Shown: piece after piece, positions 29,815 through 63,747 of the stretch
Layout: each line of letters begins with the position of its first letter
Numbering within the stretch: position 1 is the first letter of the stretch
Source: Planococcus donghaensis
Lineage (GTDB): Bacteria; Bacillota; Bacilli; Bacillales_A; Planococcaceae
Assembly: GCF_001687665.2 (NCBI RefSeq)
Contig: NZ_CP016543.2
Coordinates: 372,001 to 436,000 of the forward strand
Reading direction: 5' to 3'
Length of the DNA: 64,000 bases
Made by a program: the position numbers and the translations under genes
Notes under the pieces: model-generated
Database searches by the model: none
Told to the model about the DNA's origin: nothing
Seen by the model: only the letters and a program-made list of their open reading frames with translations

Positions 29815-29845
29815 AAAAAATGAGCTCTTCCGAAGAAGAGCTCAT
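29815..29845 (-). terminator. Terminator of the cold-shock gene
   Basis: ATGAGCTCTTC / GAAGAGCTCAT; minus-strand T run. Confidence 0.85.
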
Positions 29846-29863
29846 TGACAAGTTAGCTTTAGA

Positions 29864-30064
29864 TTAAGCTTTTTGTACGTTAGTAGCTTGAAGACCGCGT
29901 TGGCCTTGCTCGATATCAAACGTTACTTCTTGACCTTCGTCAAGTGATTTAAAGCCTTCGCTTTGGATTGCAGAGAAATGTACGAATACATCGTCGCCGC
30001 CTTCGCGTTCGATGAAGCCAAATCCTTTTTCTGAGTTAAACCATTTTACTTTACCTTGTTCCAT
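29864..30064 (-). CDS. csp: Cold-shock protein (CspB type)
   Basis: 66 residues with both RNA-binding motifs, KGFGFIE (RNP1) and VFVHFSAI (RNP2), starting [14 protein letters not shown]. An RNA chaperone. The start at 30064 follows GAGGAGG; in-frame codons upstream belong to the leader. The leader is about 110 bases from the predicted promoter, as is usual in csp genes, and holds a small hairpin. Confidence 0.96.
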
Positions 30065-30124
30065 GTGTATTTCCTCCTCGTATGCGTGAGCATACATTGT
30101 ATTACTATCCTTGCTCAAATCTTG

Positions 30125-30138
30125 CAGATGAACATCTG
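30125..30138 (-). other. Small hairpin in the csp leader
   Basis: CAGATG-AA-CATCTG within the 5' untranslated region. csp leaders often refold with temperature; a role here is inference. Confidence 0.4.
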
Positions 30139-30180
30139 ACACTTCGTAAAAAGTTATCCGAACAAAAATAATTCTTCCTT

Positions 30181-30209
30181 AGAATAACACGGGGATACAT
30201 ATATTGCAA
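30181..30209 (-). promoter_or_regulatory. Promoter of csp
   Basis: On the minus strand TTGCAA (30209-30204), 17-base spacer, TATTCT (30186-30181). Confidence 0.6.
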
Positions 30210-30301
30210 GTGAAAATGAAATATTCTTTTCGATAGAGGTTAAATCGAACGTGTATGATAGAGAAAAAACCATACACCAAGGAGAGAAAGGGAGAAGAGC
30301 T

Positions 30302-46915: not shown

Positions 46916-48640
46916 ATGAACGATTTAAAGCAGTTGGCATTTCAACGGAAAAACACAATGACATTCTTAGTTGCGATGTCGATCTTAAAAGGACTTGCTA
47001 CGATTGGTCAAGCCCTGTTTTTTGTGATGATTGCAGATCGTGTTTTTCTTCAAAGTGCTACGTTTGAAAGTTTAATCCCATTATTCGGTGGGCTGTTACT
47101 ATCGATTTTACTGCGAGCCGGATCAGGATATGCGATAGGCAAAACAGGAGTCAATTTGGCTGCTGACGTAAAAAATGAATTTCGAAATACTTTAATCCAA
47201 TCATTTGCTAGAAACCCATTGCTGGCTGCAGCTCAAGGTCAATCGGGTCAAAAAGTAGGTTTGTTAATGGATTCAGTAGATGAAATAGATGGCTTTTATA
47301 GTAAATATATTCCTCAAATGATTCAAACGTATATAATTCCTGTGATTTTGTTAGGCGTAATTTTTTCGCAAAACTGGACAAGTGGAGTCATTATTTTAAT
47401 TACAGCACCATTTATTCCAGTATTTATGGCATTGGTTGGAAAAGGAACGAAGAAAAAAGCCGACGAAAAAATGGAACAACTCAACCGTTTTTCAGGTACT
47501 TTTCTCGATATTTTACAAGGTCTTTCAACACTGAAGCTGTTTGGACAAGCTGAAAAGCAGCAGCAAGCGATTCGGAAAAGTAGTTTAGATTTCCGAGATT
47601 CTACAATGGAAGTATTAAAATCAGCATTTCTTTCTTCTTTGATGCTTGAGTATATATCCATGTTAAGTATCGGGATTGTTGCACTAGAAATAGGATTGCG
47701 ACTTGTTGTATTCGATAGCATTAGCTTCTTCACAGCATTTTTTATACTGATCTTAGTGCCCGATTTCTTTAATTTGCTAAAGGATTTCGGCAGTGCGTTT
47801 CATACAGCGCGAGGCAGTTTATCGGCCGCAAACCAATTATCTATTGAACTCGAAAAGCCTTATGCTGAGTTAACGTGGGGGAAAGAAACAGTGGCGCAAG
47901 AACCTCCTCATTTATCACTAGAACAACTCGCATTTCAATACGGAGACGGGTTTGCATTAGCTCCGCTCAATGTGGAAATTCCACCTTATAGTCAAGTGGC
48001 AATTGTCGGAAAAAGTGGTTCGGGAAAATCAACGCTCATGCACCTTTTAGCGGGTCTTCTTCCACAAAGTCAAGGTCATTTTTTTATAAATGGTGTCGCT
48101 CGAGAAAACATTAGTGAAACATCTTGGTTTAACCAATTAAGTTACATTTCACAACATCCATACCTTTTTGCTGGCACTATTCGAGAAAATATACAGATGG
48201 GTGTTACAGGCGATGTTAGTGATGAAGAGGTGAGGGTAGCGGCTAAAAAAGCAGGCATTGCAGAAATGGTCTCCACACTTGAAAAAGGGTTTGAAACACC
48301 CATTGGCGAAGCGGGGCGCGGGTTGTCTGGGGGAGAAAAGCAACGAATTGCACTTGCACGGGCTTTCTTGAAAAAACCGTCACTTATTTTATTTGATGAA
48401 CCAACGACCGGGTTAGATTTACAAACTGAGAAAGTTTTGCAAGACTCTTTGCATGAATTGAAAAAAACTTCCACGGTTATTACGGTGGCTCACCGCCTTC
48501 ACACGATTAAAGAAGCAGATATCATCTTATTTTTAGATAATGGAAAACTGGATGCAACTGGAAATCATCAAGAACTATTGAAAACGTATGTGCCTTACGA
48601 AGAAATGCTTGCAGCGCAGCAAGGAGGTGGCTTGCGATGA
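46916..48640 (+). CDS. cydD: Thiol reductant ABC exporter subunit CydD
   Basis: 574 residues. N-terminal six-helix exporter domain, C-terminal ATPase with Walker A GKSGSGKST, signature LSGGEKQRIALARAFL and Walker B LILFDEPTTGLD. Heterodimer partner of CydC; exports glutathione/cysteine or haem-related thiols needed for cytochrome bd assembly. cydAB is not in this window. ATG follows AGAGGAG. Overlaps cydC by four bases. Confidence 0.9.
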   Translation: MNDLKQLAFQRKNTMTFLVAMSILKGLATIGQALFFVMIADRVFLQSATFESLIPLFGGLLLSILLRAGSGYAIGKTGVNLAADVKNEFRNTLIQSFARNPLLAAAQGQSGQKVGLLMDSVDEIDGFYSKYIPQMIQTYIIPVILLGVIFSQNWTSGVIILITAPFIPVFMALVGKGTKKKADEKMEQLNRFSGTFLDILQGLSTLKLFGQAEKQQQAIRKSSLDFRDSTMEVLKSAFLSSLMLEYISMLSIGIVALEIGLRLVVFDSISFFTAFFILILVPDFFNLLKDFGSAFHTARGSLSAANQLSIELEKPYAELTWGKETVAQEPPHLSLEQLAFQYGDGFALAPLNVEIPPYSQVAIVGKSGSGKSTLMHLLAGLLPQSQGHFFINGVARENISETSWFNQLSYISQHPYLFAGTIRENIQMGVTGDVSDEEVRVAAKKAGIAEMVSTLEKGFETPIGEAGRGLSGGEKQRIALARAFLKKPSLILFDEPTTGLDLQTEKVLQDSLHELKKTSTVITVAHRLHTIKEADIILFLDNGKLDATGNHQELLKTYVPYEEMLAAQQGGGLR

Positions 48641-50343
48641 AGGAATTAACGCTTGTGTTGAAATTGACGCTTCTTGAAAAAAAGGATGTTTTAATCGCCA
48701 TCTTTTTCGGGTTTTTAGCAGGTATTGCAGGTGTCGCGTTGATGGGGTCAAGTGGTTACTTGATTTCAAAAGCCGCCTTAACTTCACAAATGACTACATT
48801 GGTCGTCATGGCAGCTGTTTTGAAATTATTTGGTTTTGCATCGGCGTTAAGTCGTTATGGAGAACGTTTATATTCTCACCGAGCGACATTTACAATGCTC
48901 AGTCACTTAAGAGTATCGTTTTTTGAGCGTTTGTCTCCACTGGCGCCAAGAATATTTAGCAAATATCGAAGTGGTGACTTACTGTCCCGAATTGTTGGAG
49001 ACGTTGAAAGTTTGCAAAACTTTTTACTGCGCGTATTCTATCCGCCAGTAGTGCTGGGCATTGTTTTTTTAAGTGTTGTTTTCTTCACGTCATTTTTCTC
49101 ACTAGGTATTGCAATTGTGATTTTTATCGGGATGTTGTTAACGGTAGTGGTGGTTCCAGCACTTTTCTCTAGTAGAAAGCGTCGCATGGATGGACAAGTT
49201 AGAGCGCAAAGAGGGAATTTAGCGATCGAATCGACAGAATTCCTTTATGGATTTCGGGATTTAAAAATTCATCAACAGCTTAACGCAAAAGAACAACAAT
49301 TGAAAAGTGACGCAGCACAATATAATGAGGGGCAACGACAAGAAGGATTAGAAGAAAACTTAGCTCAATCTATGAACGCATTTGTTGCGTTACTCGTTTC
49401 CTTTTTTGTTTTAGGCGTAGGCGCTTATTTTGTTGCAGCTGGTGAACTAGATGGCTTGTATTTAGCAATGCTCGTCATGGTCTCCATTGCTGCTTTTGAA
49501 AACGTTGCACCTATGGCTGCTTTTCCAACACATTTTGAAGAAAGTCGGAAAGCAGCTGTGCGATTAGAAGAGATTGTGGCTGAACCTGATTTACCACAAG
49601 GATCAGAACCTATGCCAAGTGGCCCGCTTGATATAAGATTGGATAAAGTATCTTTTCAATACCCAAACGAAAACAGCTTAGCCCTGGACCGTATATCTCT
49701 TCACTTGCTGCCAGGCACAAAAACAGCGATAGTCGGACCGAGTGGTTCTGGGAAATCGACTTTGATGCAAGTACTGTTAAGTGTTTTTCCTCTCAGCCAA
49801 GGCCAGTTATCCATCGGTGGCATACCTGTAGAAGCACTTAAGCAAGAAGAAATTTGGCAACAAATGAATATTGTTTTGCAGGAAAACCATTTCTTTTATG
49901 GTACAATCCGGAGCAATTTATTAGTTGCGAACCCTTTAGCGACAGACGAGCAAATGATTGACGTGCTGGCTAAAGTACAACTCGATATACTTCCGCTGAG
50001 TATGACGGTAGAAGAAAAAGGTCAGAATTTGTCTGGAGGTCAAAAGCAGCGGCTGGCAATTGCGCGTGCCATGTTAAAAGGGAAGTCTCTATGGCTTATG
50101 GATGAACCGGTATCTTCTGTGGATAGTTTGACAGGGCATGCCATTTACCAGCAGATGTTCCAGCAACATAAAGATGATTTGTTTGTCATCATCAGTCATG
50201 ACTTAACAGGGCTTGAAAAAATGGATCAGATTATCGTTATGGAAAAAGGCTGCATCGTAGAAAGTGGTTCATACGACGAGTTGATGGAGAAAAAAGCGTA
50301 TTTCTATCAACTTAAAGAAATTGAAAATAGTGTATTTACCTAA
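48637..50343 (+). CDS. cydC: Thiol reductant ABC exporter subunit CydC
   Basis: 568 residues. Six-helix domain with SGYLISKAALTSQM and FASALSRYGERLYSH, the CydC hallmark, then ATPase motifs [25 protein letters not shown] and LWLMDEPVSSVD. Translated in coupling with cydD (ATGA overlap). A terminator follows the stop within ten bases. Confidence 0.92.
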   Translation: MKELTLVLKLTLLEKKDVLIAIFFGFLAGIAGVALMGSSGYLISKAALTSQMTTLVVMAAVLKLFGFASALSRYGERLYSHRATFTMLSHLRVSFFERLSPLAPRIFSKYRSGDLLSRIVGDVESLQNFLLRVFYPPVVLGIVFLSVVFFTSFFSLGIAIVIFIGMLLTVVVVPALFSSRKRRMDGQVRAQRGNLAIESTEFLYGFRDLKIHQQLNAKEQQLKSDAAQYNEGQRQEGLEENLAQSMNAFVALLVSFFVLGVGAYFVAAGELDGLYLAMLVMVSIAAFENVAPMAAFPTHFEESRKAAVRLEEIVAEPDLPQGSEPMPSGPLDIRLDKVSFQYPNENSLALDRISLHLLPGTKTAIVGPSGSGKSTLMQVLLSVFPLSQGQLSIGGIPVEALKQEEIWQQMNIVLQENHFFYGTIRSNLLVANPLATDEQMIDVLAKVQLDILPLSMTVEEKGQNLSGGQKQRLAIARAMLKGKSLWLMDEPVSSVDSLTGHAIYQQMFQQHKDDLFVIISHDLTGLEKMDQIIVMEKGCIVESGSYDELMEKKAYFYQLKEIENSVFT

Positions 50344-50346
50344 TAG

Positions 50347-50382
50347 AAAAACCGCCGTCACGTAACTATGTGACGGCGGTTT
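50347..50382 (+). terminator. Terminator of cydDC
   Basis: AAAACCGCCGTCAC / GTGACGGCGGTTT around GTAACTAT. A near-identical copy in the same orientation is at 50957-50992. Confidence 0.85.
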
Positions 50383-50447
50383 CAGCTTGTAGACAAAAGA
50401 ATTATTATGTTAGTTAACGAATGTATATTGATCTTATCCTATATACT

Positions 50448-50647
50448 GGATCCTTCGCTCCATGCGGACGCTTTCCGCGGACGAAGCGCTGAGCCTCCTC
50501 GTCGCAAGCTCCTGCGGGGTCTCATCACTCCGTTTTTCCGCAGGAAAGTCAGTGACCAAAGGGACTTCGGTCAATGGCTTTGCGACGAAGCTAGCGCAGC
50601 GATGCAGGAGCATATCTTTGCCCTTCGCCGCATTGCGCTTCGGATCC
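50448..50647 (+). repeat. Module A1, GC-rich structured repeat
   Basis: 200 bp, closed by a stem GGATCC...ATGCGG / CCGCAT...GGATCC. The interior is nearly identical to A2 (63480-63659, other strand). It includes the 35-bp core 50579-50613 (starts TTTGCGACGAAGCTAGCGCA). Confidence 0.85.
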
Positions 50648-50720
50648 TTGTGTGATTACTCATTAATTCTCTTGAAAAGTGGAATCGCTGGTTACTTTCT
50701 CTAATTAAAGCTATATCCTA

Positions 50721-50910
50721 ACAACCGTTCTGGCCACGAAGACTCCTATGGGACAGCGAAAGCTGAAGACCCCGCAGGAATAGCATTGGCCGAAGCCTGC
50801 GAGGACAAGCTTTTGCGACGAAGCTAGCGCAGCGATGCAGGAGCATGGGTTTTCAGTGACGAGGAGGCTGAAGCTGAGCCCATGGAAAGCGTAGTGGCCA
50901 GAAGGGTTGT
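50721..50910 (+). repeat. Module B1, GC-rich structured repeat
   Basis: 190 bp, closed by ACAACCGTTCTGGCCAC / GTGGCCAGAAGGGTTGT (one mismatch). Contains a CAGC-GAAA-GCTG hairpin with a GNRA loop and the 35-bp core 50812-50846. Interior almost identical to B2 (63193-63381). Confidence 0.85.
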
Positions 50911-50956
50911 GGTTATACATAACTATACATTTTCAATAGACTTTGTCTACACTCTG

Positions 50957-50992
50957 AAACCGCCATCACGTAACTATGTGACGGCGGTTTTT
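50957..50992 (-). terminator. Second copy of the cydC-type hairpin
   Basis: AAACCGCCATCAC / GTGACGGCGGTTT around the same GTAACTAT loop. The one base change leaves an A-C mismatch in plus-strand RNA but a G-U pair in minus-strand RNA, so it may now serve the minus-strand gene at 51019. The U tract is weak. Confidence 0.55.
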
Positions 50993-51018
50993 AGTATTTT
51001 GATAGTATTCTACTAGCT

Positions 51019-51249
51019 TTATTTTAATAGCAAATTCTCATCTTTTTTAGCATCTTCTAACTTCATTTGTTCAAGCTCTAGACGCATTTTTTGTGTTTCA
51101 ATAACAAAGTTTTCGTGCTTTAGTTTTTCTAGTTCTAACTCATTTTCAATCATTTTACTTTTAAGCTTGGTTTGGCTTTGCAAGTGGGCAGTAATAATGC
51201 CAGCTAGTGGAATTGAAAAGACCATAATGACAGCAATCATGCCAGTCAT
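51019..51249 (-). CDS. Membrane-anchored coiled-coil protein, 76 aa
   Basis: Starts MTGMIAVIMVFSIPLAGIIT (one helix), then a Leu/Glu/Lys-rich coiled coil (residues 25-70). Layout recalls phage-shock PspB-like proteins, but the sequence is not diagnostic. ATG at 51249 follows GAGGTGAGG; a longer reading from 51294 lacks an RBS. Confidence 0.6.
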   Translation of the reverse strand: MTGMIAVIMVFSIPLAGIITAHLQSQTKLKSKMIENELELEKLKHENFVIETQKMRLELEQMKLEDAKKDENLLLK

Positions 51250-51335
51250 ACGCCTCACCTCGTTCTGATTTTTCTGACTATTAATATTATACACGTATTA
51301 CTTGTAATTTTAAAGAAGGAGATATTTAGAAATAC

Positions 51336-63108: not shown

Positions 63109-63192
63109 GGATGACTAGATGCTTAAAAGTGGACCTGAAAATAAAACAGAATGAAGAAAGTTTTATTAAACTGAATAGTAATGCATAATTTT

Positions 63193-63381
63193 CAACTAGG
63201 CTGACCACTTCGCTTTCCGTGGGCTCAGCTTCAGCCTCCTCGTCACTGAAAACCCATGCTCCTGCATCGCTGCGCTAGCTTCGTCGCAAAAGCTTGTCCT
63301 CGCAGGCTTCGGCCAATGCTATTCCTGCGGGGTCTTCAGCTTTCGCTGTCCCACAGGAGTCTTCGTGGACCAGCCCAGTTG
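63193..63381 (-). repeat. Module B2
   Basis: Closed by CAACTAGGCTGACCAC / GTGGACCAGCCCAGTTG. Interior nearly identical to B1. Core at 63256-63290. Confidence 0.85.
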
Positions 63382-63479
63382 AAGGCTTCTTGCTACAAAA
63401 AAAGTGAGATTCTTTACTGTGCTTCACCGTATAAATAACGTGTCAAAAGATTTTTTCCTACTCACTCCAGGATTCGGAG

Positions 63480-63659
63480 CACCTAGTGGCGAAGGGCAAA
63501 GATATGCTCCTGCATCGCTGCGCTAGCTTCGTCGCAAAGCCACTGCCCGAACTCCCTTCGGTCACTGACTTTCCAGCGGAAAAACGAAGTGGTGAGACCC
63601 CGCAGGAGCTTGCGACGAGGAGGCTCAGCGCGGAGTCCGCGGAAAGCGTCCACTAGGTG
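63480..63659 (-). repeat. Module A2
   Basis: Closed by perfect 10-bp ends CACCTAGTGG / CCACTAGGTG, different from the ends of A1. Core at 63504-63538. Confidence 0.85.
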
Positions 63660-63714
63660 TGGAGAATCCCACATGCATACAAAAAAATGAGTAACTATTC
63701 TTTTGTCTACAAGC

Positions 63715-63747
63715 AGAGAGCCTACCATTTGGTAGGCTCTCTTTTTT
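63715..63747 (+). terminator. Terminator beyond the composite element
   Basis: AGAGAGCCTACC-ATTT-GGTAGGCTCTCT plus T run. No gene ends close to it except the lipoprotein gene 600 bases upstream, so the element appears to have inserted between them. Confidence 0.85.

Follow-up and report, generated by a model that had tools for sequence, protein, structure and literature searches.

Insertion sequences of the IS1182 family have direct repeats of 0-60 bp according to ISfinder. Hairpin targets, often terminators and without a primary-sequence consensus, are described for IS1272 and TnSha1 in excerpts of two reports (PMC5678879; PMC4923244). The excerpts of Wan et al. (2017; PMC5678879) distinguish three results that attack on a cruciform could have, namely removal of the hairpin, duplication of the whole hairpin and duplication of the loop, of which the first represents the IS1272 data and the other two are possibilities; according to those of Furi et al. 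(2016; PMC4923244), TnSha1/IS1272 deletes the hairpin and produces no duplication. In excerpts of a review of bacterial MITEs (PMC10969869), no case of a 22-36-bp target duplication forming a complete hairpin was found. The element studied here lies in a window of 64,000 nucleotides from Planococcus donghaensis (the window being the whole stretch of DNA analysed). Like bacterial MITEs, it is short and gene-less, with inverted ends and many intergenic copies, whereas its 22-36-bp target duplication, a complete hairpin, sets it apart from them. It shares with the IS1182 family (NF033551; PF13751, PF05598, PF01609) the end type CAGNNTGTAGACAAA, a palindromic target and whole-hairpin duplication (seen in five of eight IS1182 elements), but differs in its length of 574 bp, the absence of a transposase gene and the presence of two GC-rich modules. 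IS1272 removes the hairpin and leaves no target duplication, whereas here the whole hairpin is duplicated, which corresponds to the hypothetical pathway b in the excerpts of Wan et al. No description of the element, or of an IS1182 MITE with hairpin duplication, was found in searches of the open-access PMC literature, mostly of listings. Flank duplications, empty sites, shared IS1182 ends and the absence of a transposase of its own together led us to regard the element, from sequence comparison and with a probability of roughly 0.85, as a non-autonomous (MITE-type) IS1182 relative aimed at terminator hairpins.

The mobile unit spans positions 50383-50956 of the window (574 bp), with the transposable ends CAG at 50383 and CTG at 50956; the adjoining TTT and AAA are part of a duplicated 34-bp hairpin. 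The original prediction had described a gene-free stretch with two GC-rich modules and imperfect inverted copies at its ends, and these ends, the modules and the GC contrast agree with our analysis. The inverted end sequences (50380-50399 and 50941-50959) also stood, but each had taken in three bases of the flanking hairpin, and the duplicated hairpins themselves were missing from it. The left terminal inverted repeat, CAGCTTGTAGACAAAAGAAT (50383-50402, +), is common to complete copies and has the end type of IS1182-family elements, and the right one is ...CTTTGTCTACACTCTG (50938-50956, -). The flanking terminator-like hairpins, at 50349-50382 and 50957-50990, are identical at 33 of 34 positions. 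On the left, an ORF resembling an ABC transporter by inspection only (48637-50343, +) ends beside the element, and on the right lies a 91-codon ORF (51019-51294, -). The GC content rises from 39.8% in the window to 49.0% in the element, 57.8% in module A and 56.8% in module B. No gene-sized frame is present, the longest listed internal ORF being 82 aa, and the element contains no transposase gene.

Module A (50448-50647, +) forms a hairpin with the outer stem 50448-50467/50631-50647, and module B (50721-50910, -) has the outer stem 50721-50737/50894-50910. Both had been taken as different modules; alignment of A with the reverse complement of B instead revealed a single family, B being a diverged inverted copy of A. 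Each module contains an optional insert, located at 50546-50624 (+) in A and at 50781-50854 (+) in B, and an identical 35-bp repeat occurs in both (50579-50613 and 50812-50846). The insert of A is absent from shorter copies such as L014 and L015, that of B from copies such as L004 and L014. A second copy in the window (63147-63716, -; L011/L123) retains the modules and has a hairpin at one end and decay at the other, and a hairpin duplication was not found there. The exact recurrence of an 18-bp end in this copy, proposed earlier, was confirmed, with GCTTGTAGACAAAAGAAT occurring again at 63697-63714 (-). Elsewhere in the window, a cspA thermoregulator RNA (RF01766) was recognized at 29816-30234 (-) with 78.5 bits against a gathering score of 78.

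Searching the 3.3-Mb genome with the element yielded 56 BLAST pieces, and 30 places among them, plus one further end, were examined. Both ends are retained at 19 places, including the window copy, and the ungapped match between the end of the left flank and the start of the right flank was scored for these copies. The results showed a flank duplication of 22-36 bp with a score of at least 17 in 18 of the 19 copies, while the maximum among 342 mismatched flank pairs was 3; the one copy outside this group, L120, contains an indel and scored 0. The duplicated stretch differs in sequence from site to site and is near-identical on both sides of one element. When the flanks were joined, base pairs formed inside the duplicated stretch in all copies except L116 (18/19), and a T-rich tract (at least five T in eight) lies outside the stem on the + side of 14 of 19 right copies and on the - side of 17 of 19 left copies. 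By its own rule, a consensus terminator scan called no site in 50300-51050; the label "terminator" is based on the hairpin, the T-rich tract and the position at gene ends. Sequence comparison thus showed insertion at terminator-like hairpins of unrelated sequence, and both the mobile nature of the element and its hairpin target appear well supported. Terminal inverted repeats (19 copies) and target-site duplication (18/19) were accompanied by no transposase gene in the element, and the passive mobile unit that had been suggested can be named an IS1182-type MITE. Hairpin replacement of the IS1272 kind is ruled out for it by the two hairpins at 18 of the 19 copies.

Relatives with unoccupied sites were then compared with the occupied ones, a check that had been suggested with the original prediction. 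At the place of L002, matched by 46 genomes, eight loci were fetched including our own, and all seven relatives show a single hairpin, related in sequence, without the element. At the place of L014, the same holds for five of seven fetched relatives; L368 has an unrelated hairpin, and in L367 the hairpin precedes a GC-rich module and the decayed remains of another kind of IS1182-type end, an independent hit at the same terminator. At the window place, the element end motif occurs in none of 28 relatives, and terminator-like hairpins were detected in 21 of 28 by a script that misses some, plainly single in L145, L147, L157, L161 and L165. A match at module level or better was obtained in all 45 other genomes of the genus and in 64 of 120 genomes overall, our own included, and close copies in named Planococcus (L221, L236, L265) are among the matches listed. 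Both ends together with a 20-32-bp duplication scoring at least 17 were found at 10 of 29 fetched loci of relatives, and 19 fail. As a separate observation, L145, L146, L148, L151, L152 and the left flank of L009 contain another intergenic repeat, GAAAAGCG...GGCATAAG..., which adjoins the same genes in relatives and is sometimes in tandem.

Regarding the enzyme, searches with PF13751, an IS1182 protein and NF033551 found no IS1182 transposase, and hence no autonomous partner, in the own genome, so the transposase is inferred from shared ends and the element is filed as a non-autonomous relative rather than a member of IS1182. Relatives offered more material: PF13751 matches occur in 64 of 120 genomes, 30 such loci were fetched, several with the end type CAGNNTGTAGACAAA, and 10 of 10 transposases tested passed the NF033551 cut-off. 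The ends of the element belong to this IS1182-family class, and the type is common to the element and IS1182 elements of related genomes; no partner with identical ends was found. Eight class-1 IS1182 elements whose two ends could be found were chosen from the 30 loci (L090, L100 and L109 having end variants), and five of them (L090, L100, L107, L108, L109) are flanked by a whole-hairpin duplication of 20-32 bp. L095 has no duplication, and neither do L094 and L103, whose hairpins differ on the two sides, a pattern expected from recombination between copies. The shared ends strongly suggest IS1182 as the enzyme family. One of these elements, L108 (1345-3046), is a full-length IS1182 element with a split transposase frame and a GC-rich module between the frame and one end, the only such case among 14 IS1182 elements checked. 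It strengthens the connection of the modules with IS1182, and internal deletion of an L108-like element would yield a module-bearing MITE. As to the alternative that the element might be a decayed known insertion sequence, it is not a decayed copy of any one known IS, although it is linked to the IS1182 family by its ends.

The same data bear on the idea that the element is a structured RNA or regulatory DNA unit kept by selection beside terminators, its paired hairpins being selected rather than produced by transposition. Such a unit would fit the compensatory changes in the module fold, the wide occurrence of modules in Bacillaceae (among the matches listed) and the folding of the 574-base strand, which is better than that of its own shuffles (z -5.9 as DNA, -6.3 as RNA). 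Selection would, however, have to account for hairpins that are site-specific in sequence yet near-identical on both sides of one element, for relatives with one hairpin and no element, and for the same duplication at transposase-bearing IS1182 elements. Moreover, no Rfam family reached its gathering score at the element (three sub-threshold matches), and one promoter-like site compares with 0.9 in shuffles. We therefore consider this explanation very improbable. Of the functional structured RNA or DNA proposed originally, the fold is borne out by compensatory changes, but the promoter-like matches at shuffle level and the Rfam result lend the functional part no support. Known structured RNA families were rejected, given that no covariance model matched at gathering score. 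Group IIC introns insert at terminators, and this identity was also rejected, with no group II intron family among the Rfam matches and no ORF of reverse-transcriptase size.

Further IS1182 elements in relatives fall into other end classes. In class 2, with ends GAGGCCACTGAAAAA or close (L180, L181, L184, L202), all four elements have duplications of 8-9 bp, which in each case are the hairpin loop, with the stem split between the flanks; the class-2 ends were shifted outward by five bases once the flanks were known. Class 3 (GAGGCTGGGACA) comprises two elements without duplication; L098, at a contig edge, was uninformative. The loop-only duplication in class 2, a sister class, argues for structure as the common target, which is pertinent to the possibility that the transposase responds to a sequence motif within the A-/T-rich feet of terminators instead of the fold, so that the duplication length would be the motif spacing. 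Many duplications do open with a run of A and close with a run of T, but several begin with AG or finish with CT, their length follows the hairpin (22-36 bp), and four of four class-2 elements duplicate the loop only; a motif reader is thus improbable.

Recognition of the fold by a non-autonomous IS1182 relative could proceed as follows. An IS1182-type DDE transposase supplied in trans would recognize the folded structure of the hairpin (cruciform or single-stranded hairpin) and not its sequence. It would link the two 3' ends of the element to opposite strands of the target, each at a 5' foot of the stem, and gap repair would then copy the whole hairpin; the joining chemistry is inferred from the duplication pattern. 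Since the whole hairpin is duplicated, both neighbouring genes would still be terminated and the insertion would be close to neutral, so the two-hairpin arrangement probably lets the element insert without harm to its neighbours. Terminators would be apparent safe harbours, and hairpin duplication could explain the tolerance of many copies. The duplication boundaries may be read as natural footprints of the transposase joining points on the fold, making the cruciform model of IS1272 directly testable. Class-1 and class-2 loci resemble natural instances of the remaining two outcomes in the scheme of Wan et al., which the two sister end classes seem to provide.

Beyond the 19 complete copies, one or both ends have decayed in L123 (the second window copy), L129, L130 and L132; modules without recognizable ends are present at L128, L131 and L136, and L139-L142 are short fragments. 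The order of A and B is fixed in complete copies, with the exception of L138 (170 bp), which has an internal deletion, and shorter copies are missing the 35-bp-repeat insert of one module or of both. The proposal of a dispersed two-part element therefore stands for the fixed order, but modules without ends here and solo modules in other Bacillaceae indicate that A and B are not obligate partners. Independent occurrence, part of what had been named beforehand as counting against the proposal, was indeed found, though not random spacing. Two of the 19 copies, L119 (C1:1749085-1751314) and L127 (C1:3193029-3195072), are interrupted inside module sequence by two different IS4-family insertion sequences, each with a 13-bp duplication, ends CAT...GTCAACTTAAG and an NF033592 match over the cut-off; the modules may attract IS4-family insertion sequences. 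L143 (C1:2405365-2405603) is a 239-bp remnant with IS1182-type ends and two near-identical flanking hairpins, without the module motif. By an ORF heuristic, the gene context of the 19 copies is convergent in six, tandem in 13 and divergent in none, the window copy being scored as tandem because the heuristic skips the 91-codon ORF. Three records of the plasmid collection gave module fragments only.

The module hairpin measures about 125 bp, and solo forms of about 125-130 bp, GTTGATT...AATCAAC, occur in Peribacillus, Neobacillus, Gottfriedia, Sutcliffiella and others among the matches listed. For structure analysis, 24 of 28 solo modules, eight A and four B modules were aligned in 36 rows; L217, L247:995-1139, L251 and L277 were dropped for odd ends or near-duplication. 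The consensus fold contains 24 pairs, 10 of them with changes on both sides. Double-change cells numbered 99 against 36.3 in shuffles, and the covariation score was 0.298 against 0.116 when shuffled and at most 0.061 when slid, whereas the number of pairs changed on both sides (135/500) and that of further pair types (451/500), two of the five measures used, gave no excess over shuffles. The invariant core of the alignment stems from the search pattern used to collect the rows, and the compensatory changes lie outside it. Outside the search pattern, G-T and A-C cells numbered 62 and 10 on the strand used for structure prediction, while alifold gave -17.60 for the reverse complement and -14.65 for the predicted strand. 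Since the prediction had been made on that strand, and since the better fold is that of the reverse complement, no strand is claimed for the module fold.

Modules enclosed by class-1 ends were also found in Sporosarcina (L261, L266), Paenisporosarcina (L244), Peribacillus (L214) and Bacillus sp. (L211). In two Ureibacillus loci the module lies within class-2 ends and the duplication measures 9 bp; it is the hairpin loop in L257, whereas no hairpin is evident in L282. Hairpin duplications occur at seven module matches in six loci among at least 80 loci listed, and at most loci there is none. IS1182-type ends without a module exist as well, and such module-free elements suggest that the modules are probably dispensable for transposition and probably represent cargo. 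The modules could instead be independently mobile (REP-like) units that entered an IS1182-type element in two separate insertions. Solo modules in many genera, the module beside the transposase gene in L108, and L244 and L261, in which one of two modules keeps its solo ends within IS1182-type ends, speak for such an invasion, but a mover is missing: the Y1 transposase (PF01797) is absent from the own genome and the module core from all 30 Y1 loci, and RAYT/REPIN spread was rejected on these grounds. Furthermore, no target duplication was established at solo modules, most of which have no transposase frame; the control of a general search for inverted ends around them was inflated (cross-pair maximum 84, with flanks shared by some loci), and the results of this search were not used. 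Invasion of this kind is a real but minor possibility, and it is compatible with reading the whole element as an IS1182-related MITE.

Why a single structured module recurs within transposon ends of different kinds becomes a concrete question with the present loci. As a more speculative and rather doubtful proposal, a single family would share one folded-hairpin target and use subclass-specific joins (at the 5' feet of the stem, at the loop for GAGGCCACTGAAAAA, and with removal in IS1272), and the module, as RNA or DNA, would be a selected, structured and functional cargo serving the element or the host within at least two end classes. The Bhal-1 repeats of Bacillus halodurans, in excerpts of their description (PMC2267715), resemble the solo module as intergenic conserved stem-loop repeats of a Bacillaceae genome and are possibly the same thing, the comparison being by description only. 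Two matches came from more distant records, a full solo module in L253, whose record bears the title Arthrobacter, and a match to the bare core pattern in L213, a Gemmatimonadales MAG, each of which may reflect a mislabelled contig, transfer or chance.
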